Shown here: piece by piece, positions 1 through 62,221 of the stretch
Numbering within the stretch: position 1 is the first letter of the stretch
Layout of the letters: each line of letters opens with the position of its first letter
Assembly: GCF_029784155.1 (NCBI RefSeq)
Contig: NC_073691.1
Coordinates: 63,046,822 to 63,110,821 of the forward strand
Direction: 5' to 3'
Origin: Uranotaenia lowii
Lineage: Eukaryota > Arthropoda > Insecta > Diptera > Culicidae
Length of the DNA stretch: 64,000 bases
The notes under the pieces: model-generated
What the model saw: the letters and a program-made list of their open reading frames with translations, nothing else
Databases searched by the model: none
Told to the model about the DNA's origin: nothing
Translations under genes and position numbers: made by a program

Positions 1-2850
1 GATCCGCTGTTGGATGAATTTGTGAATCCTGTTGATCGTGGATAGCCGCATCTCCTGCGCGACCTTTGGATCGTCCGACACGTTTAAGTCCTGCAGAGTG
101 TAGAGGTCCGTGTGCAACAGAAGTTCCCTGCCGAAGTTGGCGAAGTGCGGGCTGACTCCGGTTGATTCGTGCTTCGCACTGTTGATAGCTGCGGTGATGG
201 CGGCCAGGTTCTTGTCCCACTCTCGATGATCTTCCTCCAACAACGATCGAACACAAGTGATAAGAACTCTGTTCACTCGCTCGGCGTTGTTGACCTGCGG
301 TGCGTAGAAAGCGGTCTTCATGTGGATGATGTTGTGACGGCTTAGCAGCGCCCGAAACACCTGCGACTCGAACTGCTTGCCGTTATCTGATAAAATAATC
401 CTTGGTCTGGAGAACTTGAGGAACACCTTTTCTTCCAAAAACTCGACCATCTTGCTCGAATCAGCGGCTCGCATCGGGTGAGCGATGACGTATTTCGTGA
501 TCCAGTCGACAATTACTAGCAGCACAGTGTTGCCTTTTTTGGATCTGGTTAACGGTCCGACGAAATCGATAGAAATTAGCTCCCACGGGACCTTCGCTGG
601 CTTGAGCTTCCCCATCTGCGGCATCATTCTTATGTTGGGCGCTTTACTAGCCTTGCACGTAGTGCATGCTTTGACGTAACGGGCGACGTTGTCCTGCATC
701 TTCGGCCAGTAATAGTGCTGCTGTAGTTTGTGCCACGTCTTCTGGAAGCCTAGATGCGCTGCTGATGGTGCGTCGTGGTATCGACGAATGAGTTCTGCTC
801 GGTGGTTTTCCGGAACTACTTTCTTCCATCGATGCGTGATTAAACCAGCCTCATCATTGCAATGACAATTTTTGTAGAGCTCGTTGTTTGCGATACGAAA
901 GTCGGGATACTTATCGCCTTTCCGTTCCACCTGCTTGACGATGTTCTTGTACCATGGATCATTCTCCTCGGATATCGAAAACACTAGCGAACAGACTACT
1001 CTGGATAGCGCATCTGGTACGGTGTTGCAGCTGCCCTTCCGGTACCTGATTTCGAAGTCGAACGCGTTGAGTCTCAAGAGCCATCTGCTCATCAAAGCTG
1101 TGGGGTTCTTTAAAGTTTTCAGGTAGCTGAGGGCGGAATGGTCACAGTAGACGACGAAACGTACCCCTTCTATATACCCACGAAACTTTTCTATCGCACG
1201 AATAACTGCTAAGCACTCTTTTTCTGTAACTGTGTATTTTCGCTCCGACGAAGATAGCTTCTGGGAAAAATAACTGATCGGGTGTTCTTCTCCCTCGATG
1301 TCCTGCGTCAATACAGCACCAATCGCGACATCGCTAGCGTCGCATGCTATCGAGAACGGTTTTGTATAGTCCGGCATCGCAAGTACTGGAGCGGTAACTA
1401 AAGCTGACTTGAGTTTGAGAAAAGCTTCTTCTGCTGCTGTACTCCATCGAAATTTGATCTTGGCTTTCGTGAGCTCCGTGATTGGTGCGGCGATTCGTGA
1501 GAATTCTGGAATGAAGCGTCGATACCATCCGCATAAGCCTAGGAATCTTTGAACCTCCTTTCGTGTGTTTGGAACTGGAAATTTGACGATGCTCTCCACC
1601 TTTTCCTCGTCGACCCTCCATCCTCCTTCACTGAGAACGTAGCCCAAATATTTTATGCGTTGGCGACAGAACTTGGATTTTTCCGGAGAGATGGTGAGAT
1701 TCGCCTGACGTAGTCTGGTTGCCACTTCTTGAAGAACTGCTACGTGTTCGTCAAACGTTTTGGAGCAGATAATAATGTCGTCCAAATAATGAAAGACGAA
1801 TGGCTCCATGTCCGCGAAAAGATGTGTCATTAGTCTTGCGAGTCCTTGACTTGCCGTACAGATACCAAAAGGAACAACCTTAAATTGGTAGTGACCACGG
1901 GATGGTACAGTGAAAGCTGTTAAGGGTCGTGACTTTTGTTGGAGCGGCATCTGCCAGAAGGCATCCTTCAAGTCAATTGATGATATGTACGAGCATCCTC
2001 CGAGGTTATTGATGATTGCGGAGATCTGCGGTATCGGATAACCTTCGTTCACCATGATTGAGTTCAGGTGTCTTGCGTCTAAACATACCCGGTATCTGCC
2101 ATCTTTCTTCTTAACCGCTACCAGTGGATTGTTCCACGGCGAGAACACTGCTTCTTCGATCACGTCTAGGGATAGCATTCGGTCGACTTCCTTGTTAACT
2201 TCCGCTAGGACGTACTGCGACATTGGGTAGTACCGTTGTTTCCTTGGTGGCGCATTTCCGACGTCGATTTGATGTTCGTAGATTTGCGTCCTACCTAGTT
2301 TACCATCTTCTGCCTTCGGAAATGTGTGTACCACTTGGTCTAGTCGCTTTTGCTGTTCTGGTGAAAGCTCCTTCATCGGTTCTGCATCTTCTTCTAGTTC
2401 ACTGCTCATCATCGAGAAGCACACTGCCTTGACGCCAAACGTTTGCCAGAAGTTCATGCCCATGATAGCGCAATCTGGCAGGCTAGGCACGAGTAGAACC
2501 GGCAATATCTCGCTTCGATTGTTGTACGATATTGGCAGACGTGTGAAGTGATTGATCTGGTGTGGCGTTCCATCCGCTGTCTTGATCCCACCGTTCAGTG
2601 CTTCTTTTCGCAGTCCCAGCTCTTCTACAATCTGTGCTTTATTGCCACCTAACAACGAACAGTTTGCGCCACTGTCCAACAAAGCTGTAACTTTCTTTCC
2701 AAGAACGTCCAAAACGGCGTGTGGACGATTGTCATGTCCGGGATTGATAATGATAGAGTTGATGTCTAGTAAATCGGGAGGTATTGAAGGTTGATAGCTG
2801 TGTTGCGAAGAATCTGGCCCTCCATCTACCACCTCCTCGCTGCGGCGTTT
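1..2850 (-). CDS. pol: Pol polyprotein (protease, reverse transcriptase, RNase H, integrase), partial
   Basis: This frame is open throughout on the minus strand and reaches base 1 without a stop. It lies in the -1 frame relative to gag and overlaps the gag end, so a frameshift near 2843-2853 would be needed to make a Gag-Pol fusion. Domains in order: aspartic protease with LLDSGA (about 2680); reverse transcriptase with FHYLDD at about 1780 and a typical SSIDLKDAFWQ box at about 1960; RNase H with ACDASD at about 1345 and EKECLAVI at about 1210; integrase with an HHCC zinc-binding segment at about 770-650 (CTTC visible) and the central DFVGP, LSDNGKQF and NNAERVN motifs between about 560 and 270. 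All expected catalytic motifs are seen. The C-terminal end of integrase is outside the window. Confidence 0.92.
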
Positions 2851-4994
2851 TCCGCTTCACTGTTACAAACAAGACAGCTGCGTAACGTGTAACCTTTTCG
2901 ACCGCATCTGTAGCAAAAGAGAATTGCCTGTGCCTTCGTGCAATCCGGAAACCTATGCCCCTCCTCATCGCAGTTCCAGCAAAGCGCTGGGCGGTACGCT
3001 GTATGCTGAACAGGATCTAGATCGTACATGTTGTTGCCTGCTTGCTGAAGCTGCTGGTTCTGGAGCTGTGGTTGATAGTGCTGTTGGAATTGCCGTTGAG
3101 GCTGCTGTTGTTGAAGCTGCTGCCGTTGAGGCTGCTGTCGCGGAGCCCATTTAGCTTGCTGTTGCAACGGATGTTGTATTCGATGGTTCTCCGCTTGACT
3201 GCCTTGCCGATTCACCAAATTGTTCTGACCTGCCGAAGTTGTAGGCGGTTGCTGACGCTGTTCCGGTCGTTGTAGAGAGTGTTGCTGCTGTAGTCCTGTA
3301 TTGAAACGATTCGATCTGCGCTCTAGTTGAAGCTTCATGGCACAAACTTGCTCGTACAGCTGGTTGAAGTCCCCTTGCAAACCGTTTGCTTCTTCTGGAT
3401 CCACTAGATCTGCTTCAGTTTGGATAGCTGACGTTGAAGCCGCACCTTGCTGGCTCTCGTTCTCCACCGTATAAACTCTGTTGAAGCGTGGCTGTTGTAT
3501 TGGAAGCCTATGCGATGGTGCTGAGCATGAGGTGGCTCCGTACAACTGCTCGTCCGCCTCTACTGCTTGCAATCTCCCGAAACGCTGCTGCTGGTGTTGC
3601 TGAGATCGACTTGTTGTTGCTGGTGTTGCGAAGTTCGGTTCTAGTAAGCTGTTGTGCGGAATTGGAATCCTGCGCTGCTGGTTCAGTAATAGCCTTGTCT
3701 CGTCGAAGTTGCTGCAGACGTTGACCAGGTCCATCAGTGTCTTTGGCTGAGCGGCTGTTACTATTGTTGCATAGTCCATGTTCATATTTTTCTTGACTAT
3801 GAACAACTTCTCCTCTTCCGTAAGTGGTGGATCGATGAAGCGGAATAGTGTAGAGATGTCACGGAAGAACTTATCGAACGTTTCGTTGGCACCTTGAAAA
3901 CGGAAGCTGGCTTCCAACCTCAGGATCTGAGCATACCCGCTAGGCAGGAATTCCCGTCGAATTTCTTGCTTGAATGCTTGCCAGGAATATAGGCGACGTT
4001 GGGCAAGTGCTCTTGAGTACCAGTCGAGGGCGTCTTCAAGCAACAGGTGCTTGATGGAAGCCAGAAGTGTCTGATCGTCGATTCCCTCTGATCTGGCAAA
4101 CGTCTCCACCCGGTCCAAGAAAATGTTGAGGGACGTGGTGTCCTTTTCGCCTCGGAACTTGAAAGGCCAATTGTGAATCGCCTTCTGCATCCGCCTGTCG
4201 TAGTTGCTACCACTTCGGTTTGTAAAGCTGTCGTTCAACTGCTGCTGCCTCCTCTGTCGTTGTTGAATGTCGAACCGCAGTTCGTCCAGAACGTTCACAG
4301 CAGCCAGACCAGCCGAACTACCCGACCTCCGGATGATTACTTCCTCCGAGTCCCTCTGTCCTTGTCTGCCTCCTTGGAATGGAAGAGAAGACGGCTCGAC
4401 ATCCGCTTCTTGCATCCGTGCTCGTGCTCCTTCATCATTTCCGGCTGCTTGTGGCCTCGGTTGAATCGTCAACGCATCGCAGGCATCCCTACTGCTACTG
4501 TTCTCTGCCTGGATGGTTGGGACACTAGTTGAAAGGCTAGTGTTTTCTGTTTCACTTAGCACCATATTGACTGCACTGTTCACGCACTCTATCTGAGCTA
4601 GCAGCGTCTCTACAAGCTCGCACACGACCCTACGCGTTTCCTCTAAACTCGCGACCACTGGAATCAGTGATAATCTTTGCCGGTAATGAAGCAATCTCGA
4701 TTTCGCGCAAGCCATTTGATCGGCGTTTCTATTCTGCGTGGCTAAATCAACATGATTCCTCAATTCTACAACTGCCCTCTGGCAGACCTCGATGTTCAAC
4801 TCCGGCGACATTACGTGTTCTGAATTAACATAAATGGTGTCTCTAAGGGTGTCCTCTTGGACAAGGGCTTTTAACTTGACCACCCTAGCTCTTCTAGAGC
4901 ATGGGGCTAGATTCGTAACATGGCGCAAGGCCAATTCATATTCCATCTCCTCATCATTAAGATGATATAATTCAATTTGTTTATTCATCATCAT
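2826..4994 (-). CDS. gag: Gag protein, 722 aa
   Basis: Structural protein of the gypsy element. The first third is hydrophilic; residues about 245-430 hold a retrotransposon gag (capsid) domain with WPFKF, W(Y/Q) and a FRDI segment typical of insect Ty3/gypsy gags; residues about 560-680 are a low-complexity Q-rich linker. The C-terminus has one good CCHC zinc knuckle (CWNCDEEGHRFPDC) and a second cysteine-rich motif where the histidine is replaced by tyrosine (CYRCGRKGYTLRSC), so the second knuckle may not fold as usual. The start codon lies 215 bp downstream of the primer-binding site, and the stop at 2826-2828 overlaps the pol frame. The length is large for a gypsy gag because of the Q-rich insert. 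Confidence 0.92.
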   Translation of the reverse strand: MMMNKQIELYHLNDEEMEYELALRHVTNLAPCSRRARVVKLKALVQEDTLRDTIYVNSEHVMSPELNIEVCQRAVVELRNHVDLATQNRNADQMACAKSRLLHYRQRLSLIPVVASLEETRRVVCELVETLLAQIECVNSAVNMVLSETENTSLSTSVPTIQAENSSSRDACDALTIQPRPQAAGNDEGARARMQEADVEPSSLPFQGGRQGQRDSEEVIIRRSGSSAGLAAVNVLDELRFDIQQRQRRQQQLNDSFTNRSGSNYDRRMQKAIHNWPFKFRGEKDTTSLNIFLDRVETFARSEGIDDQTLLASIKHLLLEDALDWYSRALAQRRLYSWQAFKQEIRREFLPSGYAQILRLEASFRFQGANETFDKFFRDISTLFRFIDPPLTEEEKLFIVKKNMNMDYATIVTAAQPKTLMDLVNVCSNFDETRLLLNQQRRIPIPHNSLLEPNFATPATTSRSQQHQQQRFGRLQAVEADEQLYGATSCSAPSHRLPIQQPRFNRVYTVENESQQGAASTSAIQTEADLVDPEEANGLQGDFNQLYEQVCAMKLQLERRSNRFNTGLQQQHSLQRPEQRQQPPTTSAGQNNLVNRQGSQAENHRIQHPLQQQAKWAPRQQPQRQQLQQQQPQRQFQQHYQPQLQNQQLQQAGNNMYDLDPVQHTAYRPALCWNCDEEGHRFPDCTKAQAILFCYRCGRKGYTLRSCLVCNSEAENAAARRW

Positions 4995-5208: not shown

Positions 5209-5219
5209 GTTGGGCGCCA
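5209..5219 (-). promoter_or_regulatory. Primer-binding site, tRNA-Lys type
   Basis: The minus strand reads TGGCGCCCAAC, the start of the common lysine-tRNA primer site of retroviruses and gypsy elements. It is two bases inside the putative LTR end (minus strand ...TTACA, plus strand TGTAACGG from 5222). This fixes the orientation and gives the inner boundary of the 5' LTR. Confidence 0.85.
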
Positions 5220-5221
5220 TT

Positions 5222-6660
5222 TGTAACGGAGGCTGATCGTGGTCGGTGCCACAAATAAAAGAATTAAGATTGCGAAATTGCGAGAGATAATTTTGCGTGT
5301 ATTGGGCAACATTTTTGTAACTCATCCCTCCCATTATCCCCAAAATAGCGTGTACTCACTCTTTTCACAAGCTTCCAATGTGCTTCCTCCTCGGCCTAAA
5401 TTGCTCCCGCCTCGGGAGCGGCGTTTTGCTGTACACGGATGCGGCGATCGAAGACAGTCGGTTTCGGCGGCTGATCCACCGATTGCTCTTCGCCTGCTGC
5501 GGCGATCAGAATTTGGTCCGACTTGACGGTTGTGCCACAGGATTTCTGCCGCTGGCGCGGCGGTCACTGGCGAACGGATTCGGCGCCGGAACCACCAAGA
5601 TCTCCCGCCTCGGTGCGGCTATCTGCTGTGCACGGACTCGGAACTTGTGCGCCGGATGTCCGCCCCTGATGCGGCGATGGAATTCGGTCCGGATTGTCAG
5701 CTGTTCCTCCGGATATTCGCCACCGATGCGGCGACGCGCTACCAACGAATTCGGCGGCTGTGCCACCGAGATTTCGCCACGGGTGCGGCGATCTGCTGCC
5801 GGCTATTTGCCACTGACGCGGCCCACAGGATATTCGCCACCTATGCGACGATTGAACGCCCTCGGATTCGGCGGATGTTCGCCCCTGATGAGCCAAGGAA
5901 CTTCGGTCCGGATTGACCGCGGTACCCCAGGATTCTTTCGCCACTGGTGCGGCGACGACGAGCGAAACTTGTCGGCGGCTGTGCCACCCAATGCTTGCCC
6001 CTGCTGCGGCGATAGAACTTGGTCCTGCTCGGCAGCAGTGCCCCAGGAATCTTCGCCACCGGCGCGGCGACGAAAGCGAATGAATTTGGCCCTGATTCGC
6101 CGGGATTTCTTCGTCACCAGTGCGGCGTCGACGTTGGCCCCTGCCACAGCGACGATATTCGCTTCGGTTCGGCTGCAGTACCGCCGGTATTCTTTCGCCA
6201 CTAGTGCGGCGACGAAAGCGAATGATCCACCAGATGATCCTCGCCTCGGATGCGGCGATGAAAAGCGATCCTAATCGCACCGATTCGCCGCGATTTTCCA
6301 CCGGATCGACGATCGATGGCAGGTGAATTCGGCAATCGTCTCCGGGCTTACTCGCCACTGGTGCGGCGACCTGAAGCGCTTGGTTTCGGCGGAGGTTCCA
6401 CCGGATTTCACGCCACTGGTGCGGCGTTCGGGATTCTATCAGATCCGGTCGTTGAATTGCCGGACTTCCACCACGGATGCGGTGATCGGATTCGGCAGAC
6501 TTGGCGGGATTCTTACCTCACGTTCAGCGATCTGCTGCGCTTGGATTCGGCAGACTGAATCACTGAGAATCCGCAACTTAAGCGGCGAATGAACCCGCTC
6601 GAATTCGGCTGCTGTTTCCCGGAATTCGTCGCCACTGAAGTAGCGAGACGGAAGTGACCG
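5222..6660 (-). repeat. Putative 5' LTR / upstream flank of the gypsy element, outer end unknown
   Basis: The segment begins with TGTAACGG on the plus strand next to the primer-binding site, as an LTR should (TG...CA). Its outer CA end cannot be placed because the partner LTR is outside the window. Most of it is the GC-rich 57-bp array listed separately. If the array is inside the LTR, the LTR is well over 1 kb. Confidence 0.5.
5430..6560. repeat. GC-rich tandem array, 57-bp period, with a hairpin in each unit
   Basis: A motif like TCGCCACTGGTGCGGCGA recurs near 5440, 5497, 5553, 5613, 5667, 5727, 5783, 5842, 5889, 5946, 6003, 6060, 6117 and less regularly to 6417. The step is close to 57 bp, with about 18-20 diverged units. 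Most units hold a TCGCC/GGCGA inverted repeat around a 7-8-nt loop. Because 57 is a multiple of three, long open frames (up to 298 codons plus, 264 minus) run through it on both strands. These look like a by-product of the repeat and are not called as genes. Confidence 0.85.
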
Positions 6661-11439: not shown

Positions 11440-12728
11440 CACATTGAAATTCAACAAAAACAGTACACCATGGTGGAACTAAAATCTCAGTAAATTACGA
11501 AAGAACTGCATACGCTCTTGGAAACGATGACGCACGGATGGTTTTGATGCTTTCAAGTTGGCTCGCCGAGCCTTCCGAAAAGTAGTAAGAGCTGCCGACG
11601 CCCAAGTTGGCACTCACATTTCGGACTTGCACGAAGCAAGTAGGTTAAATAAAGTCTTAGCGAAATCAAAAGATTAGCAGGTTCCATACTTTAAAACCCC
11701 CAGCGGTTATTATACTTTAAACGACGAAGAAACATTAAGTTGTCTGTTCAATAATCACTTTCCAGGATGTGTTGATAAAGATTCATCGATAGGGCCTGAG
11801 TTATTTTTTGGAAGTCTAGATTCCTTGCATTTGGCTCGGAAAATAGTTACTACAGAATCGATCAAATGGGCAATTGATGGTTTTGCTCAACACAAATCTC
11901 CTGGAAGTGGCGGTTAAATTTCAAGTTTTGCTTAAGAATAAGGATAAGCAGTTTTGCTCATGGATATATAAACTTCAGCGGCAGATAGCCGTGAAATTAA
12001 TCCCTAAAGGGGGAAGATCATCATACGACGAAGCCAACAGCTTTCGTCCTATTAGTCTTAAGTTCATTTTTATTAAAAGCACTCGGATGTTTAATTGATC
12101 ATCATCATCAGAATGCCTTGTCCAACATCCGCTTAATGCGACACAACATGCATCCCAAACAGGAAAATTAACATTAACTCTTCTTCACAACGTAGTGTTA
12201 TAGACACTATAATTTCATATAGTCTGGCAAAGAGAATGACGGGAGCCAATCGAACTGTCATTCGCGGGAGCCAATCGAGCAAACTTTCTAAATATTGGAA
12301 AATCATGGTGGAAGTATTGTGATTCACAAAGCTTTTTTGGCTTTTAAGTAACAATAACTTAAGGTATTTCGTATAATTTTCACTATTTATTCACCTCTAG
12401 ATTATATCATATTTTTCAAAAACGATTTTGAGGTCAATTGACAAGAAAAACGTTTATTTTACGAATCTAAAAAACTATTTTATATTTTGCAACTGGAAAG
12501 AGTTATGAAGAGCTTGAACATTATCATAGAATGCTCGATTGGCTCCGCGCGAATGACAGTTCGATTGGCTCCCGTCATTCTCTTTGCCAGACTATATGAA
12601 ATTATAGTGTCTATACGTAGTGTGTAAAAAATGAAAATGGTTTTCCACAGGAACAAACATGCAGCATGGAGCATTCTTTGACATAGAAGGAGCATTTGAT
12701 AATGTCTCGTTTACATCAATATTGAATG
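11440..12728 (+). pseudogene. LINE reverse transcriptase, first remnant (endonuclease-RT linker and fingers/palm)
   Basis: Conceptual translation across frames gives a decayed LINE ORF2: a TPWWN-like start (about 11470), a linker ending near DLHEASRLNK (about 11640), the WAI..F..HKSPGSGG block (about 11870-11910), KLIPKGG...FRPISLK (about 11995-12063), and the D-containing FFDIEGAFDNVSF block (about 12670-12710). The reading continues at 19552 after a large insertion, and further at 20750 and 22472. The last pieces are RNase-H-like, so the source is a LOA/R1/I-type LINE. Frameshifts and stops are frequent; this copy is dead. Confidence 0.8.
12199..12615. mobile_element. 417-bp MITE with ~85-bp inverted ends and 8-bp TSD
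   Basis: The first ~68 bases (starting TATAGACACTATAATTTC) are an exact inverted copy of the last ~68; similarity continues for about 17 more with one indel. The octamer CGTAGTGT flanks it at 12191-12198 and 12616-12623. Taking it out rejoins the LINE reading frame region around LLHNVV. An 8-bp duplication fits hAT, P or Merlin superfamilies; the ends do not start with the usual CA of hAT. Confidence 0.88.
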
Positions 12729-13257
12729 GGAGCGCACGTGTTTTTTTCTTCATGTCGCGAAAAATTTTAATGTTTTAACTTTAAAAAGTGAAAAACTAGG
12801 TTCTTTTTGCAGTGCAGTAAAGAAAAACGGAGATTAAAAAAATGGCGACGGTTGGCAGTGAAAACACAATGCGAATGTATTTAGAAAAAGAGGTAAAAAA
12901 GCCTAATAGAGAATTTGTTTTCGTGTGGTGGTGCTCCGGGGCACTACCGGTAGTGCACTTTTTGCTGTTTTCATGCTCGTTTTCACGATGAGTAGTCCAC
13001 TGGTAGTGCACCATAAAGTGGACGGTGGAACACTCTGAAAATATTCGGTGTTGCTTGCGCTCTCACCAATACTATCACGAATTTTGACAGCACATGCTTC
13101 CCGTTGTAAACAAATATCAGCTGGTTGGTTTATTTCTATACCGCAAAAATTGCGTTCGAGCTGTTTTTTTCTCTTCATTATCCCGAAGAACGGAAACTTG
13201 TTCCGGATTCAATACCAGTGCCGTTTCCAACAGAGGCGGAGAATTTCACCTGGATGG

Positions 13258-13623
13258 TGTCGTGTCCGGTGGATTTTTCCTTCCTTCGTAGTCAGTCCGG
13301 GCGATTCAGGATGTCTTTCGAAGAAACTTACTTCACGTCCGTCCGTCGCAACAATATTCTATCAACTGGCTCGGCTCGTTCGTTTTTTTTCACTCGGAGA
13401 AGCCGTTGGGAATTGCACCAATCCACCCTCTCCACATCGTGCAGATTCATTAGTGGTAGTAAATCCTGATCAAATTTGTCGGACTATCTCTTCTCGTCGG
13501 TTCACAGACAACGTAGATACTAGTTGTGTTAATTAGACTTCATTATTCTCAAACCACCCAAAATTATATTTTGAACTGTCATTTTTTTTAATAATTTTAT
13601 TCTCATTGTTCCTATTCTCTACA
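13258..13623 (-). repeat. 3' LTR of the non-autonomous LTR element
   Basis: 366 bp, starts TGTCGTGTCC and ends CTCTACA on the plus strand. It appears identical to 17108-17473. On the element's own strand the LTR opens with TGTAGAGAATAGG and has an AATAAA about 25 bases in. Confidence 0.95.
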
Positions 13624-13637
13624 TCCCTCTCCTCGCC
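13624..13637 (-). other. Polypurine tract
   Basis: Minus strand GGCGAGGAGAGGGA, directly abutting the LTR, as needed for plus-strand priming. It decides the orientation of the element. Confidence 0.7.
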
Positions 13638-14924
13638 TACTCTTCATTCTAAATTTTTGCCAAAAAACATAAATCAATTAAATAGAAAAAAATATTGTTT
13701 GATATATATTTTATTTCAAACATTGACATTGAATGTATATCAGAAACTCCTTTAAATTAAAATCTAGTCGTAAATATCCGATTTTAAAATCAGTTACATT
13801 GTCTTTTCTATTGTGGTTTATCGCATCATTTTTTATTTATCATGTCATATTCATTCGTCATCAATTAATATAATTTTCTTTCTGTTTTTCACTTCTGTCT
13901 TTCTGTTTTAACCATTATTATTTTTTTTTTACCTTTTCACTATGAATCGTGACTTCTATTTCTGCTCAACAGCACTTATAAAAATTAAAGGACATTAAAG
14001 TTGGTTTTTCCTATTGGCTAACATTATTCGTTTCTTTTATTTTAACTTTTCAATTAGCAAATTACAATTTTTGGTAGACTTTTTCCTTATTTTTCCTTTT
14101 TTTTTAAACATTTACTAGATCAAAATACTTTCATCCTTAAGTACACTTTTTCTTATCACTTTAAAAAAAACTGAATCAATGAAAAACGCGATTTTATAAT
14201 TCTTCTCTATCATTTCCCCTTCAAATCAGTTTACTCTTCTTTTTTTCCGTCTCTTCTTCTTATATATATCTTTAAATTATATACTTTTTCTTTATTTTCT
14301 TATCTTACAATCTCCCTCTTCTCATTTTTTCATTACCTTAACAAAGCCAACGAATAATGCAATTTAATACCATATCAATTTCTGATCTTATTATTTTCCT
14401 CACGTCTAATCTATTCAGCTTCTTAACCCAAACGTCCATCATCTTCTCAACTTATTATTGACTACATTTCTTTCTTTTTCTCATCCGATTATTTCGTTTC
14501 TGCTCATCTTTTTATCTTTTTTGTTTCTGCTGTTACAACCTCTCTGTCTATTTGTTTCTAGTCACTTTTTTGTATCGTTTTATCTTTCGTCCCTCATTTC
14601 TCATTTTCTCTTCTTATTATTTTATAATCATTTCTGCCATTGTCCTCGCCAGCCTCTCATCTTGTTATTTGAATCTCCCCCTTGTCTCATCACTTAGATT
14701 CTTACTATCGTGGCCGAAAGATCCTTCTTCGGAGTTGCCTATAATTAATTTTTCCAGCAGCTTTTGATTTTCTCAAAAAAAAATTTACACTAACGAACAC
14801 ATTTTTTTCTCGTTAAGAACTCTCCTCTATCCTTAAAAGATTTTTCTTCCTCAAATATATAATAAATCTCGTATATAATTTTCTTTTTCTTTACTATTCT
14901 TTTTTTTTATCTATCTTATTTTTG

Positions 14925-15970
14925 TAATCGTTTGATTTGTTTTTTTTTGTCTTTTTTTATTGGGCCAAACTCTTTTCACATAAAATTTTACATTTCATAT
15001 TCTCGTTGTTTCATCTAACCCATTTCATTTATTATTTTCTCATCTATCTTATTTTGTAATCGTTTGATTTGTTTTTTTTGTATTTTTCTGGATCAAACTC
15101 TCCTTTTCTCATAAACTTTTCCATTTCATATTCTCGTTGTTTCATCTGTCCCATTTTATTTTTCATTTTTTTTTTTATCTTCCCATTCTCTCATCTTTTG
15201 ATTCCATGTTTATCTTGTCTCCAAAAATATCTAATGTTCCATAACTTTTTTATTTATTTTTTGTTATACTTTTTCTAGCTCAAAATACTTTCATTCTAAA
15301 GTGCATTTTTTTTATCAACGCAACTTTTGCTCTATCATCCTCTTTTTACTCATTTTTTTTATAACAAGAATTCATCTATCATCTACTCATCTTTTTTTTT
15401 ATACCTTTTCTTTCTCCTTCGCATCTGATTATCTTAACTTATTCAATAATTTTATTAATACATCTTTCAATTTTCTAGTCGTCTGGTTTTTCCTGAATAT
15501 CATTTTCTTTTTCACTACTATTTTTTTTCTCATCTATCTTATTTTGTAATCGTTTGATTTGTTTTTTTTTTTGTATTTTTCTGGTTCAAACTCTCCTTTT
15601 CTCATAAACTTTTCCATTTCATATTCTCGTTGTTTCATCTGTCCCATTTTATTTTTCTTTTTTTTTCCCATTCTCTCATCTTTTGATTCCATGTTTATCT
15701 TGTCTCCAAAAATATCTGATGTTCCATAACTTTTTTATTTATTTTTTGTTATACTTTTTCTAGCTCAAAATACTTTCATTCTAAAGTGCATTTTTTTTAT
15801 CAACGCAACTTTTGCTCTATCATCCTCATTTTACTCATTTTATTTATAACAAGAATTCATCTATCATCTACTCATCTTTTTTTTTTTATACCTTTTCTTT
15901 CTCCTTCGCATCTGATTATCTTAACTTATTCAATAATTTTATTAATACATCTTTCAATTTTCTAGTTTAT
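14925..15970. repeat. Pyrimidine-rich tandem duplication, ~490-bp period
   Basis: About 435 bp from 15044 to 15478 recurs at 15532-15966 with small differences (for example CGTTTGATTTG at 15061 and 15551). A shorter third copy of the first part starts near 14925. The segment lies in the interior of the LTR element and is almost purely T/C on the plus strand, so the element RNA would be A/G-rich here. No coding potential. Confidence 0.85.
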
Positions 15971-16149
15971 ACTGCTATAACCTTTCAAATTTTTTTCTAG
16001 TCTTTTTTTTTCGTTTTATATTCGCATCTGATTTCTCATCTTTTTCATCTTTTCTCATCTATTTTTCTTATCTTCTAATGTTATCATCGTTTTTTCATTT
16101 TTCTGTCAATCCTCTTATTACGAATTGTTATATTTCATAATTAATTTGG

Positions 16150-16860
16150 ACTTTATGCCACTCAGAGCACAAATGAAGTCACTCGTAGCCAATCATGGTG
16201 ATAGTTTTACTTTTTCTTTAATCCAAGAATCGCTCTAGATTCTTGATACTAGAAATAGAACAAGTATACGATTACCCAAAGCCGTGAAAAGGCCACTCAG
16301 AGCCAGGGGCCACTCAGAGCCAAATATGGACCACTCGAAGCCACTTAAACCAAGAATCGCTCGAGATTCTCTATACTTGCCACTCGGAGCAAGTATACGA
16401 CCACTCAGAGTCGTGAAAAGGCCACTCAAAGCCAGAGACTAAGACCACTCAGAGCCAAAGTCGGGCCACTCGAGGCCACCACAACAAAGAATCGCTCGAG
16501 ATTCTCTATACTTGCCACTCGGAGCAAGTAAACGACCACTCAAAGTCGTGAAAAGGCCACTCAAAGCCAGAGACTAAGACCACTCAGAGCCAAAGTCGGG
16601 CCACTCGAGGCCACCTCAACAAAGAATCGCTCGAGATTCTCTATACTTGCCACTCGGAGCAAGTAAACGACCACTCAAAGTCGTGAAAAGGCCACTCAGA
16701 GCCAATTGCGGGTCACTTGGAGCCGCCCAAACCAAGAATCGCTCGAGATTCTTGATACTTGCCACTCGGAGCAAGTAAACGACCACTCAGAGTCGTGAAT
16801 AGGCCACCCAAAGCCGAAGTCGGGCCGCTCGAGGCCAATAAGGATCGCTAGGTATCATGA
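16150..16860 (-). repeat. Hairpin array with constant loop and changing stems
   Basis: A higher-order repeat of about 105-136 bp (AGAATCGCTC at 16226, 16353, 16489, 16623, 16735, with a decayed sixth near 16840). Each unit holds small inverted repeats around the plus-strand loop CACTCRRA: TATACTTGC/GCAAGTATA, ACGAC/GTCGT and several GGC/GCC. A second hairpin type, AGAATC/GATTCT around GCTCGA, opens each unit. On the element strand the loop reads TYYGAGTG. The stems differ between hairpins but stay paired. Confidence 0.88.
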
Positions 16861-17089
16861 AAGTTAAAAGAATTGAGAACAATCACGTCGAAACAATATT
16901 CAGCATCCAGTCTCGTTCATTTGCTTAAAAAAACACTTCATACCGTTTTTGAAAAACTTCAAAATGGCCTCTCAGATGCCGCTCCAAATCACGCCACACT
17001 TCACTTTCCAACACAAAAAGCAGCACTCAGACCTCCAGCTAATTCGTTTGGATAAAAGATCTTTTCACATCATCAACTACTCGCCTCGA

Positions 17090-17106
17090 GAGCGTAGACC
17101 GCGCCA
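17090..17106 (-). promoter_or_regulatory. Putative primer-binding site of the LTR element
   Basis: One base after the minus-strand 5' LTR the sequence reads TGGCGCGGTCTACGCTC. TGG is the required start. I could not match it to a known tRNA 3' end, so the primer is unknown. Confidence 0.5.
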
Positions 17107-17107
17107 T

Positions 17108-17473
17108 TGTCGTGTCCGGTGGATTTTTCCTTCCTTCGTAGTCAGTCCGGGCGATTCAGGATGTCTTTCGAAGAAACTTACTTCACGTCCGTCCGTCGCA
17201 ACAATATTCTATCAACTGGCTCGGCTCGTTCGTTTTTTTTCACTCGGAGAAGCCGTTGGGAATTGCACCAATCCACCCTCTCCACATCGTGCAGATTCAT
17301 TAGTGGTAGTAAATCCTGATCAAATTTGTCGGACTATCTCTTCTCGTCGGTTCACAGACAACGTAGATACTAGTTGTGTTAATTAGACTTCATTATTCTC
17401 AAACCACCCAAAATTATATTTTGAACTGTCATTTTTTTTAATAATTTTATTCTCATTGTTCCTATTCTCTACA
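17108..17473 (-). repeat. 5' LTR of the non-autonomous LTR element
   Basis: The same 366 bp as 13258-13623, followed by GATGG, the right-hand target-site duplication. Confidence 0.95.
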
Positions 17474-17474
17474 G

Positions 17475-17651
17475 ATGGCACGTTCCAAAGCAAACAACGC
17501 TCCCAAGAAGAAATGTGCCCAGAAGGTTTTCTGCAATCGGTTCCAGGCGATGCCGAAAAAGAGCAGCAAATCCGAGTGCAAAAAGGCCAACCCAAAGATC
17601 TGGTGGAATCGCCCAAACCGAAAAGTTTTCTTGTTCGGGAGGGTCCTATAA
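17475..17651 (+). CDS. Open frame of unknown function, cut by the LTR element
   Basis: An ATG-to-stop frame of 58 codons, very lysine-rich (KKK, PKKSSKS), starts inside the right GATGG duplication. Without the LTR element and one TSD copy, the frame joins the open frame that ends at 13257, giving a longer basic protein with its start upstream of 13200. It lies in the 5' part of the ORF1-only LINE, so it may be a 5' part of that element or a captured fragment. I do not recognise the protein. Confidence 0.35.
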   Translation: MARSKANNAPKKKCAQKVFCNRFQAMPKKSSKSECKKANPKIWWNRPNRKVFLFGRVL

Positions 17652-21350: not shown

Positions 21351-22469
21351 AAGTCTGCTTCATTTAATATTGGAACAAATTCTTTTGCTCATTGTGGCGC
21401 TCCTAGTGGACGGATTTGGAAACTTTTTTCACCCACGTGTTATCAAGCAGTACAAGGAAACATTGACGACGGCTCGGAAGCCGCATTCGAAGCGTCGGAG
21501 TGGAACTGTCGACCGGAAACTGCGTGGGAAAGTCATCAAGGCCGTCAAGAGGAATCCCAATCTTTCAGACCGCGATTTGGCCAATAAGTTCCAGGCCGCT
21601 CACAGTACGGTGCGACGAATTCGTCTCCGGGAAGGAATAAGGTCATTCCGAGCCAACAAACAGCCAAATCGGACGCTGAAGCAGAAAAATGTGGCCAGAA
21701 TCCGTGCTCGAAAGCTGTACGACCAAGTGCTGACCAAGTTCGACGGATGTATTCTGATGGACGATGAGACCTACGTGAAGGCGGACTTTGGGCAAATCCC
21801 AGGTCAAAAATATTATTTGGCGACGGCTCGGGGGGATGTACCTGCAAAATTTAAGTTCGTGTTTGCGGATAAATTCGCCCGCAAGAACATGATTTGGCAG
21901 GGGATATGCAGTTGTGGACAGAAAACCAAAGTCTTTCTCACTGACAAGACAATGACATCAGAAGAATACAAAAAAGAGTGCCTACAGAAACGGATTCTGC
22001 CGTTTATTCGTGCCCACGACCGTCCAGTAATGTTTTGGCTGGACCTCGCAAGCTGCCATTACAGCAAAACGGTTATGGAATGGTACGCAACGAACGGGGT
22101 CAGCGTAATACCGAAGGACCTCAACCCCCCAAACTGCCCCCAGTTCCGGCCGATAGAGAAATACTGGGCAATCACGAAGCGGAGGCTTAAGGCAAAAAGA
22201 AAACTTGTTAGGAACATGACTCAAATGAAGAACTGGTGGAATCAAATCACCAAAACGGTGGACGAAAAGGGTGTGCGCCGCCTAATGTGCCGTATTACGG
22301 GAAAAGTACGAGAATTTCTTCGAAACAGCAATGAATAATTTTTTTATTTTTTTTTTATGAAAGAGTAAAGAAAATGCTACATTTGTATGAAAAACAAATT
22401 ATGAATTCGTTAATAAATGACTGAACTACACGCAATTGTTTGTGTTCCAATATTAAATGAAGCAGACTT
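21351..22469 (+). mobile_element. ITmD37E (IS630-Tc1-mariner, DD37E) transposon, near-intact
   Basis: A 1119-bp element with inverted ends AAGTCTGCTTCATTTAATAT at both termini, continuing TTGGAACA, flanked by TA at 21349-21350 and 22470-22471. Most of it is the transposase frame. With both ends, a 2-bp TA duplication and an unbroken ORF, this is the best candidate for a mobilisable DNA transposon in the window. Confidence 0.92.
21370..22338 (+). CDS. DD37E transposase, 322 aa
   Basis: The N-terminal third carries a helix-turn-helix domain (residues about 45-90; VKRNPNLSDRDLANKFQAA then STVRRIR) for TIR binding. The catalytic triad is visible: first D in LMDDETYVKAD (about residue 136-139), second D in FWLDLASCHY, and E in RPIEKYW, with 37 residues between second D and E. 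That spacing defines the mosquito DD37E family and is unlike DD34D mariner or DD34E Tc1. The frame is intact. The first ATG is only 19 bp inside the element, within the TIR zone, so the true start is uncertain; no other upstream ATG fits. Confidence 0.92.
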   Translation: MEQILLLIVALLVDGFGNFFHPRVIKQYKETLTTARKPHSKRRSGTVDRKLRGKVIKAVKRNPNLSDRDLANKFQAAHSTVRRIRLREGIRSFRANKQPNRTLKQKNVARIRARKLYDQVLTKFDGCILMDDETYVKADFGQIPGQKYYLATARGDVPAKFKFVFADKFARKNMIWQGICSCGQKTKVFLTDKTMTSEEYKKECLQKRILPFIRAHDRPVMFWLDLASCHYSKTVMEWYATNGVSVIPKDLNPPNCPQFRPIEKYWAITKRRLKAKRKLVRNMTQMKNWWNQITKTVDEKGVRRLMCRITGKVREFLRNSNE

Positions 22470-50597: not shown

Positions 50598-51048
50598 TTT
50601 TATATTAGTTGGCTGGTAAACGGTGGATAATGTGCAACTCGAGACCCCATAGTGGTCATATCACCTCTTATTCACAACTCCTATCTCTACCTCCCCGCGG
50701 TGCCGGCTGGGGTGCGAGTAACCTAAGCGGAGATCGGGTACCCAACCCCGGTGGATGCTTTGGTCGCATGCAGACTGAGAAGGTGGCCGCACGCGTCCCC
50801 AGGTCGGGGGCGGCGTGCAACAACAACCGAGCGTCTGTTCTACAGGTCAGGGGCGGCTCAAGCAGCGTCTGTCTCGCAGCGAGCGGCTGAATTTATGAAA
50901 TGCGGCTCCCGCCAGCTAAGTCCAAGATGGCAGCCCCATCGCGGGATAGGGACTTTAGGCTAACAACCTACTGCTCCTGATATCTTGTATTGTTACAGAA
51001 ACTGAGAGAAGAAATAACCGAATTGGAACTTTGGCAACGACTTTTAGC

Positions 51049-52077
51049 ATGAAAACACGGACTAGAATTGGAACTTGGAATGTTTTGACCCTTGCCCAGC
51101 CAGGAAAGCTGGCTCAACTTGCTAGAGAAGCTAGCCGCCTCAAGCTAGAGATATTGGGACTGAGCGAAGTCCGTTGGCCTAACACTGGAGAACACAAGAC
51201 ACAGTCCGGGCAAGTACTGCTTTACTCTGGCATACGAGGAGAACATGCTACTCGGGAACGAGGAGTTGGTTTCCTTTTAAGCCCGCAGGCCCATGCGGCC
51301 CTCATAAGATGGGAACCGATAAACGAAAGAATAATCGTAGCCAGATTCAGAACACGGGTTAGAAACCTTACAATGGTCCAGTGTTATGCGCCAACTGACG
51401 TTGCCGATTTGCAGGAGAAAGAGCAGTTTTACAGTCAATTGAACAGCGTGGTTGAGAGAATTCCGAAGGGTGACATTCAAATCCACTTAGGCGACTTCAA
51501 CGCAAAGATTGACTCCGACAATCAGGACTTTGAGCGCATCATGGGGCGCCATGGCCTAGGACAGATGAGCGAAAACGGAGAGCTGTTTGTAGAATTTTGT
51601 GGCAACAACAACATGGTGATCGGTGGATCGCTCTTCCCCCATCGACCAGCACATAAGGTCACTTGGGTATCCCGAGATGGCCGAACAGAAAATCAAATTG
51701 ACCACATCTGCATCAGTCGAAAATGGAGAAGGAGCCTTCTTGATGTCCGCAACAAACGAAGCGCAGACATTGCATCTGACCATCACCTCGTCCTTGGCGA
51801 GATACGACTGAGAGTTGCGCGTGTCCAACGGCGCGAGGAGAAAGTCGGGTGTCGATACGACGTCCGCCGGTTGGAGAATCCAGAGGTGAAAAGGGCATAC
51901 GTTGAACAGCTAGAATCCCGAGCCTTGGAGTTGCCGACAGACGGAACAGTCGAAGAACAGTGGTGTGGAATCAAGAATGCTTTTATCACGACGAGCCATG
52001 GTACTCTCGGTAAAGTTCGTGGAAGAAGAAGTGATTTTATTTATTTACATAGTATTCCGTCTCACGACATAACTTGA
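51049..52077 (+). CDS. RTE ORF2, endonuclease half (interrupted)
   Basis: From MKTRTRIGTWNVLTL: an APE-type endonuclease with the catalytic signature residues visible (N in GTWNV, E in LSEVRW, D/N in GDFNAK at about 51490, and SDHH at about 51778). It nicks target DNA for target-primed reverse transcription. The last ~14 codons before the stop at 52075-52077 come from the nested insertion. Without the insertion and one TSD copy (253 bp removed), the frame continues into 52288 and makes a protein of about 987 residues. Confidence 0.9.
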   Translation: MKTRTRIGTWNVLTLAQPGKLAQLAREASRLKLEILGLSEVRWPNTGEHKTQSGQVLLYSGIRGEHATRERGVGFLLSPQAHAALIRWEPINERIIVARFRTRVRNLTMVQCYAPTDVADLQEKEQFYSQLNSVVERIPKGDIQIHLGDFNAKIDSDNQDFERIMGRHGLGQMSENGELFVEFCGNNNMVIGGSLFPHRPAHKVTWVSRDGRTENQIDHICISRKWRRSLLDVRNKRSADIASDHHLVLGEIRLRVARVQRREEKVGCRYDVRRLENPEVKRAYVEQLESRALELPTDGTVEEQWCGIKNAFITTSHGTLGKVRGRRSDFIYLHSIPSHDIT

Positions 52078-52276
52078 CGAACATAATTCCTGAAATTCAC
52101 TCGGTTCATAGCAACCGTTCTCCAATTTCTCGGGCACCCCACGTTCGCCAGATCACGCTCCACTTGGTCTAACCATCTCGCTCGTTGCGCCCCCGCTCGT
52201 CTTGTTCCTACCGGATTCGTAGCGAACACCTGTTTTGCAGGACAGTCGTCCGGCATTCTCGCAACATGTCCCGCCC
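52035..52276 (-). mobile_element. 5'-truncated RTE-like tail nested in the RTE element
   Basis: Flanked by AGAAGAAGTGA (52024-52034 and 52277-52287). On the minus strand it encodes only the C-terminal end of another RTE-type protein (WAGHVARMPDD, RRAGAQRARWLDQVERD, ending VRQVMS at 52074) and ends in an AAAT-like tail. A 242-bp, strongly 5'-truncated insertion of a different RTE family. Confidence 0.92.
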
Positions 52277-52287
52277 AGAAGAAGTGA

Positions 52288-54265
52288 ATGGATGTCGGAT
52301 GAAACCTGGAGGATGATCGATGATCGGAGAAAGGCGAAAGTCGGAATTGAGCAGGCATGTACCGGGTCAGCCAAAGCAGCCGCCCGCTTACGATATGCGG
52401 AGCTGGAGAAGGCAGTTAAACGAGCTTGTAGACGAGACAAGAGAGCCTGGACAAACTCCCTAGCCGAAGAGGGAGAAAGAGCCGCCGCCATTGGAGATAT
52501 CCGATTATTATATGATATTTCTCGCCGCCTTAGTGGTGCAAGGACTAATGCAAGAATGCCGCTGAAAGACCGAGCAGGTCAGCTGCTGACAGATCGAACA
52601 GATCAGCTTAAGCGTTGGACTGAGCATTTTGATCAACTTTTCCGAGTTACAAATAGCAATGGCCAACAGAACCCGCAGCTCGAGGCGCCCACAGTAAGTC
52701 GCATTAATGGCGTCAACTCGGAAGCGCCCTCGCTGGCTGAAATAGAAACGGCAATCAAAAACATGAAATCCAACAAAGCGCCTGGAATCGATTGCATTCC
52801 TGCTGAAATACTCAAAGCCGACCCTGCCTTGTCAGCACAAATGTTGCACCGTCTTTTCGCTGACATTTGGGATACTGCAACATTCCCGGCCGACTGGATG
52901 CAGGGTATCCTCGTAAAGGTCCCAAAGAAAGGAGACCTAACAGAGTGCGGTAACTGGCGTGGCATAACTTTGATCTGTACAACCCTCAAAGTACTCTGCA
53001 AAGTGATCCTGAACAGGATCCAGGAGAAAATCGACGCTACACTCCGACGGCAACAAGCTGGATTCCGATCCGGACGATCATGTGTGGACCACATCACAAC
53101 GCTACGAATAATACTGGAACAAATCAACGAATTCCAGGACTCTCTTCTGCTGGTGTTCGTTGATTTCGAAAAAGCATTTGACCGACTGAACCACGAAAAC
53201 ATCTGGGCTGCTCTTAGACGACGAGGGGTCCCAGAGAAACTAGTCCATCTCATCGAAGCACAGTACGAGGCATTTTCGTGCAAGGTCTTGCACGACGGTG
53301 TCTTGTCCGAACCAATCCCGGTAACTGCTGGAGTGAGACAAGGATGTATTTTGTCACCGCTGCTTTTTCTCATCGTAATGGATGAGATCTTGACTGGATC
53401 GATTGACTGTAGACCAAACCGAGGATTGCCGTGGAATCCTTCAACCATGGAGCAACTGAACGACCTTGACCTGGCAGACGATATTTTTTTGCTCGCCCAA
53501 ACACAACAAGACATGCAGAGCAAACTCGACGACCTCACCGAAAGCTCCAAGGCAGCAGGTCTCAAAATCAATGTCGGAAAGACCAAGTCGATGGAAATCA
53601 ATACAGAAAATCGTTCCAATTTCGTGGTAGCTGGACAACAGGTTGAGACAGTGGAGTGCTTCCAGTATCTTGGTAGCCAGATTACGCCTGATGGTGGTAC
53701 CAAGAAGGACATCGAAACCCGGATCAGAAAAGCCCGATTTGCGTTTGCGAGTCTCCGAAACATCTGGCGGTCACGCCAGATCTCTCTACGAACTAAGATC
53801 CGAATCTTCAACTCAAACGTCAAATCCGTATTGCTGTACGGGTGTGAAACTTGGTGCACATATGCGGTGACGACGCGAAAACTGCAAGTTTTTGTGAATC
53901 GCTGCCTGCGGAACATCATCCGCGCTTGGTGGCCTGGCAACTGGATCTCAAACGTTGAACTTCATCGCCGGTGTCATCAAAAGGCGCTAGAAATCGAGAT
54001 TCGGGAACGTAAGTGGAGATGGATTGGGCACACGCTGCGAAGAGATGAAAACGAGATTGGCAGAGAGGCGCTCGACTGGAATCCAGATGGGCATCGAAGA
54101 AGAGGCAGGCCCAAAAGCTCGTGGCGGCGAAGTCTAGCCGCTGAAATCCGCACAGTTGACGAGAACCTTGGCTGGCAGCAAGTGAAGACGCTGGCTCCGG
54201 ATCGCCAGCAGTGGAGATCTTTTATCTCAGCCCTATGCGCCGGTCAATCGGCGCTGGACCCTTAG
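52288..54265 (+). CDS. RTE ORF2, reverse transcriptase half (downstream of the interruption)
   Basis: The frame is open from before 52288 to the TAG at 54263-54265. RT blocks: KSNKAPGIDCIPAEIL (about 52770), GNWRGITLICTTLKVLCKV, QAGFRSGRSCVDHI, VFVDFEKAFDRLN (about 53155), VRQGCILSPLLFL (about 53335) and the catalytic LADDIFLLA (about 53475). Then the RTE-type C-terminus WIGHTLRRDENEI...EALDWNPDGHRRRGRPK. No stops. Apart from the nested insertion it looks functional, so the family was recently active. Confidence 0.92.
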
Positions 54266-61624: not shown

Positions 61625-61883
<259 letters not shown>

Positions 61884-62221
61884 TGTGTGAATTCACTCTT
61901 CAGTTGTCAAAATACCGTCCAAGAAAGAAGAGCAGCGTATCAAAATTTTGCTCGCGCATCGCGAAAATCCGAGTTACTCGCACGCTAATCTGGCAAAATC
62001 GCTAAAAGTTGCAAAATCAACCGTTACGAATGTAATTAAAGTGCTTGGGGAACGTTTGTCGACAGCCAGGAAGTCTGGATCGGGGGAAATCGAAAACCGG
62101 AAGCTGCTGAGACGACAAAGAGAGAGACACATGAAACTGTCAAAGTTCGCGAAGAAATATCTGGTTTGGCAAGCCATCTGTACCTGTGGCTTGAAAAGCA
62201 GCATTTTCATAGCTTCCGGGA

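Follow-up and report, generated by a model that had tools for sequence, protein, structure and literature searches.

How the RNA of an LTR element that codes for no protein enters the particles of other elements is largely an open question. It is raised by a locus of the frog-biting mosquito Uranotaenia lowii, where such an element carries an array of small hairpins with a constant loop in its leader. The locus lies in a stretch of 64,000 nucleotides (C1:63046822-63110821 of the 1.08 Gb assembly), the whole of which is referred to as the window.

A young non-coding LTR element

The element spans 4216 bp on the minus strand (13258..17473). Its LTRs (5′ LTR 17108..17473, TGTAGA...CGACA in RNA sense; 3′ LTR 13258..13623) are identical in all 366 positions, and it is flanked by the TSD GATGG (13253..13257 and 17474..17478). 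On the minus strand, a single base separates the 5′ LTR from TGGCGCGGTCTACGCTC, the likely primer-binding site (PBS), which is annotated as TGGCGCGGTCTACGCTCT (RNA sense) at 17089..17106. The polypurine tract (PPT) GAGTAGGCGAGGAGAGGGA directly precedes the 3′ LTR (13624..13642). Because the PBS follows the 5′ LTR and the PPT precedes the 3′ LTR on this strand, the RNA of the element is the minus strand, as had been predicted. A plus-strand RNA is ruled out by PBS, PPT and the ratio of G-U to A-C pairs given below.

The LTRs enclose 3484 bp. The array, 24 hairpins with the loop YYYGAGYG and stems of 3-9 pairs (16152..16836, minus strand), has its hairpins 275-942 nt past the 5′ LTR, i.e. between the PBS and a purine-rich non-coding body (13643..16149; 70% A+G and 50% A in RNA sense) in which 485 bp are tandemly duplicated (15035-15966). 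The longest sense stop-to-stop frame has 67 aa, so that there is neither gag nor pol between the LTRs. The element thus has the LTR pair, TG...CA ends, TSD, PBS and PPT of an LTR retrotransposon and, on the coding criterion, belongs to the non-autonomous elements of the LARD/TRIM type, which agrees with the original prediction. It is a young, non-coding LTR element. In 16 other elements that carry the array, the purine share of the whole interior is 52-67%; purine bias is therefore pronounced in certain families and close to nil in others.

The window contains further repeats. A drz-agam-1 ribozyme (39.4 bits) just upstream of endonuclease and RVT_1 frames marks a non-LTR element that begins with a ribozyme (50668-54265, plus strand). 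A 328-aa frame with a DDE_3 domain (21352-22338, plus strand) codes for a Tc1/mariner-like transposase. Just outside the LTR element there are 68-nt perfect inverted repeats that are 281 nt apart (12199-12266 and 12548-12615), a possible MITE, and a nearly perfect GT repeat of about 131 units occupies 61627-61889.

The hairpins of the window array

Where about twenty constant loops within inverted repeats had been predicted, 24 YYYGAGYG loops are found on the RNA-sense strand in 16152-16836, each on a stem of three or more standard pairs. The first and last loop positions can pair (U-G or C-G), which leaves a hexaloop YYGAGY with an invariant GAG. All stems that had been named as examples are present, including the 7-bp versions of the longest one with the common loop, the 9-pair hairpin tatacttgc-TCCGAGTG-gcaagtata (16372..16397, minus strand). 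A second type of hairpin, AGAATC/GATTCT, is present but is not a separate motif: it belongs to the hairpin atcaagaat-CTCGAGCG-attcttggt (16731..16756, minus strand; pairing probability 1.0), which has a loop of the same class. We therefore reject two separate hairpin classes in favour of one. With up to one mismatch, CCACTCRRAGNC occurs at 22 places in the window, 20 of them inside the array (shuffle mean 2.63).

In a local partition fold, only 10 of the 24 hairpins reach a pairing probability of at least 0.5; most of the short GGC/GCC stems compete with other pairings and are not dominant when the single sequence is folded. The 711-nt array region folds better than shuffles on the sense (z -2.9) and on the antisense strand (z -3.7; 20 shuffles each), and folding energy cannot pick the strand because both strands beat their shuffles. 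The array is built from tandem units of about 135 and 112 bp.

A search of the window against Rfam at gathering score left the array unmatched and found only the drz-agam-1 ribozyme elsewhere, and a tRNA search of the window found nothing in the array. Mimicry of a T-loop or tRNA was set aside, since position 1 is C in many loops. The octamer CACTCGGA in the LTRs (13391-13398 and 17241-17248) was rejected as a further hairpin, having C-A as closing pair in RNA sense. The stem around it is weak and pairs better on the plus strand than it does in the RNA; the octamer occurs at a similar place in several other loci.

Copies of the array in the genome

A genome search with the array gave at least 104 matches at E-values up to 0.001, with 68-100% identity, and thirty loci around array matches were taken for analysis. 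In 34 array stretches from 33 loci, there are 597 YYYGAGYG hairpin loops (near-identical copies included), 287 of which are unique; common loops are TCTGAGTG and TCCGAGTG. Grouping 18 LTRs, one of which is the 5′ LTR region of L033, at 80% identity over 70% of the length gives 9 families.

Twenty loci, the window included, have an LTR pair around the array. In 18 of these 20 pairs the LTR starts with TGTAGAG, and equally often a PBS of the type TGGCRYRGTY and a related PPT are found. The misses come from L019, L025 and L031, whose LTRs matched only in part; when these are left out, 17 elements remain, among them the window element and its near-identical copy L009. An exact 5-bp TSD was found by script for 14 of the 17, those of L012 (ATTAT) and L013 (GTGAC) were read by eye, and that of L036 differs. 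The two LTRs are identical in 8 of the 17 elements. The array starts 52-342 nt past the 5′ LTR in these elements, and the longest sense stop-to-stop frames of the 16 others have 58-160 aa. The non-coding copies have thus transposed recently. One non-coding element, L029, holds a 624-aa antisense frame (1913 onward, minus strand).

LTR end and PBS occur together at 160 places of the genome when one mismatch is allowed (38 exact; reversed control 0), a count that includes other families with other leader repeats. The combination of PPT and LTR start occurs at 57 places (up to one mismatch; control 0), and two tandem loops at 449 (control 0), counting overlapping places as well. At C2:391.12 Mb there is an element that carries the array (L041), and its frames, read by eye, include none that is gag- or pol-like (L044); the array is absent from L040.

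The loop was also searched in IMG/VR viral contigs, where 20 stretches were obtained; in 19 of them the paired loops do not exceed one per 250 bases. One phage-like contig (L062, 6695-6790) has six identical 16-bp tandem copies that hold ggcTCCGAGTGgcc, with invariant stems. In the absence of stem variation we take these copies to be unrelated to the array and probably a coincidence.

Compensated stems and the selected strand

The stem accompanies the loop where loops are clustered. In 30 sources (the window and L010-L038), stems of three or more pairs enclose 369 of 399 clustered YYYGAGTG loops but only 17 of 108 isolated copies; this set omits L001-L009, which are parts of other loci or, in one case, a near-identical copy, as well as loops with N and loops at locus ends. 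When stems were counted first, with no loop required, the 34 array stretches yielded 487 hairpins of at least five Watson-Crick (WC) pairs, near-identical copies included, and 277 of them enclose the motif loop. Ten dinucleotide shuffles gave on average 223 hairpins and 0.1 motif loops.

The pairing itself exceeds expectation. Across 174 unique hairpins, stem positions 1-5 have 163, 145, 155, 97 and 90 WC pairs, and 1000 shuffles reach at most 133, 108, 83, 65 and 72; the counts for position 6 and beyond are inside the shuffle range. At position 3 the pairs are of all four kinds (G-C 78, T-A 36, A-T 34, C-G 7). When the inner 4+4 arm pairs are reduced to the 75 distinct ones, irrespective of whether they pair, 64, 53, 56 and 34 are WC, and the maxima of 2000 shuffles are 61, 48, 40 and 35. 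Positions 1-3 exceed all shuffles, and position 4 is above the shuffle mean of 19 but just below the maximum. If the 3′ arm is slid by 1-3 bases, WC pairing drops from 64% (555/870) to 21-34%, so that there is a peak only in register.

It has to be asked if the array could be a neutral tandem repeat, in which unequal exchange has spread a few stem variants. The array does consist of tandem copies, with units of about 135 and 112 bp, and many hairpins are duplicates (597 reduce to 287 unique ones). However, there are 9, 15 and 19 distinct, fully WC-paired stems over the inner 3, 4 and 5 bp, which is more than a few duplicated units would give. Together with a pairing that surpasses shuffles in register only, this makes neutral expansion hardly credible.

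Departures from WC pairing bear on the strand. Among those flanked by WC pairs in the 287 unique hairpins, a strict count gives 31 G-U, 7 A-C and 28 other mismatches, and a loose count 53, 15 and 82, respectively; a smaller first set of hairpins had 19, 7 and 18. As a G-U pair on one strand is an A-C mismatch on the other, selection seems to act on the sense RNA. The p-values of 1e-4 and 4e-6 are nominal, because the hairpins are related by descent and the statistics ignore this kinship. As had been predicted, and now for stem pairing across the copies of the genome, a constant loop with compensated stems points to selection on RNA structure, apparently that of the sense strand.

Repeated units in the 5′ leader are also known from the Drosophila gypsy element, where they form an insulator. 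To our knowledge, no covariation of paired stems has been described for that array. A DNA-level array of protein sites (an insulator or enhancer), with the inverted repeats as a by-product, would be expected to keep its sequence, and not to keep its pairing while the sequence is free. It would also leave unexplained the excess of G-U over A-C (31:7) and the single orientation of the loops: the 17 elements with both LTRs hold just one antisense octamer, which has no stem. According to the available text of PMC3286476, the 5′ UTR tandem repeats of gypsy are an insulator and as such work as DNA, which is the precedent for this explanation; for the U. lowii array we regard it as very improbable.

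The loop composition allows for another function, kissing-loop dimerisation, in which YYYGAG would pair with itself and join two genomic RNAs. CTCGAG is a perfect palindrome, CTCGAGYG represents 70 of the 287 unique loops, and a T at position 2 (167 of 287) permits full self-pairing with wobbles. However, in 120 of the 287 loops a C at position 2 is opposite the invariant A and breaks self-pairing mid-way, and a pairing constraint should have removed such loops. We give dimerisation a small chance.

The array in gag-pol elements

The search of gag leaders in the same genome, which had been proposed along with the original prediction, was positive: the array occurs between the PBS and the gag pieces of a Ty3/gypsy element, and also in a second pol element that lacks gag. 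The latter (L045, C2:267350230-267356330) has an LTR end and the PBS TGGCACAGTC at its start, followed by the array and by an open frame of 721 aa that has RNase H and integrase domains; gag, protease and the main RT domain were not seen in this frame. Compared with the genome, the frame is 92% identical to the C-terminal pol part at C1:98581445-98583586 (minus strand), among the best 62 of 5910 candidates.

In this C1 relative, the array (C1:98590739-98591799, minus strand) is located between a PBS at C1:98592286 and a PPT at C1:98580006, and its leader, contained in L033, has the same array. Downstream there follow a possible gag start, a nested copia element, a gag piece and then RT. The nested element has a copia-type gag and an RVT_2 pol, and it splits the gag of its host element. 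Read by eye, the gag piece contains CWRCTSRNHSEDKC and CRNCKRDGHIERAC, two CCHC knuckles of the form CX2CX4HX4C. A Pfam search of the gag pieces found no gag family, and a protease match near the RT is weak and under the curated cut-off. The Ty3/gypsy order of RT, RNase H and integrase, with Ty3 Gag-Pol as the best PDB match, applies to L045 and to the L046 copy only, and the assignment does not extend to the window element. 'K02A2.6-like' protein names among the matches are a mere lead toward the Mag lineage.

A search with the L033 array gave at least 62 matches; the best non-self match among those listed is that of L045 (84%), and the rest have 65-90% identity over shorter stretches. At least two array places coincide with pol matches, among the best 40 of 42 array and the best 62 of 5910 pol candidates. 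No such loop occurs in L047, a stretch of 1001 bases whose position at the leader of a pol relative with 70% identity was guessed. The gag-pol relative and the window element have array, PBS type and PPT in common, and their LTR interiors give no long alignment. The array is thus common to coding and non-coding elements of the genome.

A probable packaging signal

The array is structured, lies between PBS and gag and is shared by RNAs that are supposed to be packaged. On balance, we favour the reading that it is a multi-copy RNA recognition signal in the leader of one Ty3/gypsy lineage, most likely a packaging (Psi) signal that is read by Gag and has been kept by non-coding derivatives. Each hairpin would present the invariant G-A-G in a loop of 6-8 nt, and a Gag with two zinc knuckles would gather its RNA through many such loops. 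The stem would merely hold the loop open, and could drift by compensatory changes while the loop stays fixed. With LTR ends, PBS, PPT and array, the non-coding derivatives would retain what is needed for transcription, packaging, reverse transcription and integration, and the gag-pol relative would supply the proteins for the last three. We infer that Gag is the reader and packaging the outcome, and that the window element has been mobilised by the gag-pol relative. Many hairpin copies could act by avidity, which the available text of PMC6281560 argues for the dispersed packaging signals of RNA viruses.

Some observations count against packaging: the gag-bearing relative is split by a copia element, coincidences of array and pol are few among the matches listed, and most of the short stems are not dominant. 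The failure of the LTR interiors of gag-pol relative and window element to align at length, and the loop-free stretch L047 at a guessed leader position, point the same way.

Known packaging signals offer a parallel. Retroviral Psi, such as the GGAG loop of HIV-1 or the hairpins of MoMuLV, likewise lies in the leader between PBS and gag and has loops that expose guanosines, and its reader in HIV-1 is a two-knuckle NC; the gag piece of the U. lowii relative also has two knuckles. Psi consists of few unique hairpins, whereas the U. lowii array has about two dozen copies of one hairpin class. The spacing of GAG in the array loops resembles that of the HIV-1 GGAG loop, in which G7 and G9 are held by the NC knuckles according to the accessible part of PMC7599994. 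The same source reports that packaging was not significantly affected when this loop was replaced, and therefore the parallel is only a lead. The multiple dispersed packaging signals of the MS2 type, as far as described in the available text of PMC6281560, also consist of many stem-loops with a common short loop motif; they differ in being spread over the genome and read by a capsid protein, whereas the U. lowii hairpins are clustered in the leader of an LTR element.

Other leader repeats

Two more elements with a similar PBS have other repeats in their leaders. In L043 a 39-bp unit with CCCC-UGAGA-GGGG is present in 18 copies; the repeats of L042 hold CUGACGCAAGGGCAG. Allowing one mismatch, the L043-type repeat CCCCTGAGAGGGGCAGTAC occurs at 2111 genome places (control 0), which are largely clustered in the places listed, and the L042-type repeat CTGACGCAAGGGCAGAGC at 234 (control 1). 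In several copies of the L042 repeats (GCTCTGACGCAAGGGCAGAGC) only the inner 3-4 pairs are kept, and the L043 stems hardly vary; because of this partial loss and near-constancy, neither permits a covariation test. About 3.6 kb downstream of an L042-type cluster (C3:204754098-204754268, plus strand) lies a pol match (C3:204757894, plus strand) that is 56% identical to that of L045, and the cluster seems to sit about where a leader would be. These repeats suggest lineage-specific signals.

This bears on the question of the reader. The hairpins may be read not by Gag but by a host RNA-binding protein that serves nuclear export of unspliced RNA, localisation to germline or oocyte, or stability. 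Such a factor likewise predicts a leader array common to coding and non-coding elements and selection on the sense RNA. However, one factor would favour one motif, and the differing leader repeats of other LTR lineages are left unexplained, so that we consider a host reader unlikely.

If Gag is the reader, as we prefer, a more general proposal can be put forward tentatively, as a possibility that we ourselves view with some doubt: each mosquito Ty3/gypsy lineage might have its own multi-copy leader hairpin as an RNA barcode for its own Gag, and non-coding elements might survive by keeping and amplifying the barcode of their helper. The CCCCTGAGAGGGGCAGTAC and CTGACGCAAGGGCAGAGC repeats would then be other barcodes.

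The window itself has another gag frame of 722 aa (2829-4994, minus strand; Ty3_capsid/Retrotrans_gag, under the curated Pfam cut-offs) with a likely PBS, TGGCGCCCAAC, near 5218. Upstream of this PBS, about a dozen copies of TCGCCGCAYYRGTGGCGA occur at 5400-6650 (minus strand), apparently within a long LTR. This repeat is hairpin-like, with a mostly constant stem and a variable loop.

Relation to known non-coding elements and implications

Non-coding mosquito LTR elements with tandem repeats are already known. For Culex quinquefasciatus, the accessible text of PMC3286476 describes 38 non-coding LTR families with tandem repeats for which no master copy was found, as well as three gag-pol elements of the Mag lineage with tandem repeats in the 5′ UTR. 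These cqUNK families resemble the U. lowii elements in their mosquito host, LTRs, PBS, PPT, TSDs of mostly 5 bp, tandem repeats and lack of coding capacity. The U. lowii repeats differ, in a comparison of the repeat sets by description only, in that they are hairpins with one loop across families and have an array-bearing gag-pol relative. The word 'hairpin' does not occur in PMC3286476, and its available text reports no covariation in the Culex tandem repeats. What is added here is thus the hairpin structure and a candidate master.

The LARD/TRIM elements of plants, an ant and cestodes have similarly kept LTR, PBS and PPT while coding regions are absent, and are supposed to move in trans. In the available text of the TRIM study PMC4558846, a packaging signal is supposed and not identified, whereas U. 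lowii offers a defined, repeated structural candidate. It adds that the packaging signal, conserved in structure alone, is difficult to identify and that proposals of helper pairs are few. A search of titles and abstracts, with subscription papers mostly outside its range, found no comparable hairpin array in an LTR leader.

A single genome provides hundreds of hairpin variants, a gag-pol relative that matches them and, as natural controls, leaders with other motifs; binding and packaging are therefore directly testable. The hairpins may also help to interpret the Culex tandem repeats in structural terms. If the barcode proposal is true, the loop sequence would predict which helper moves which parasite.
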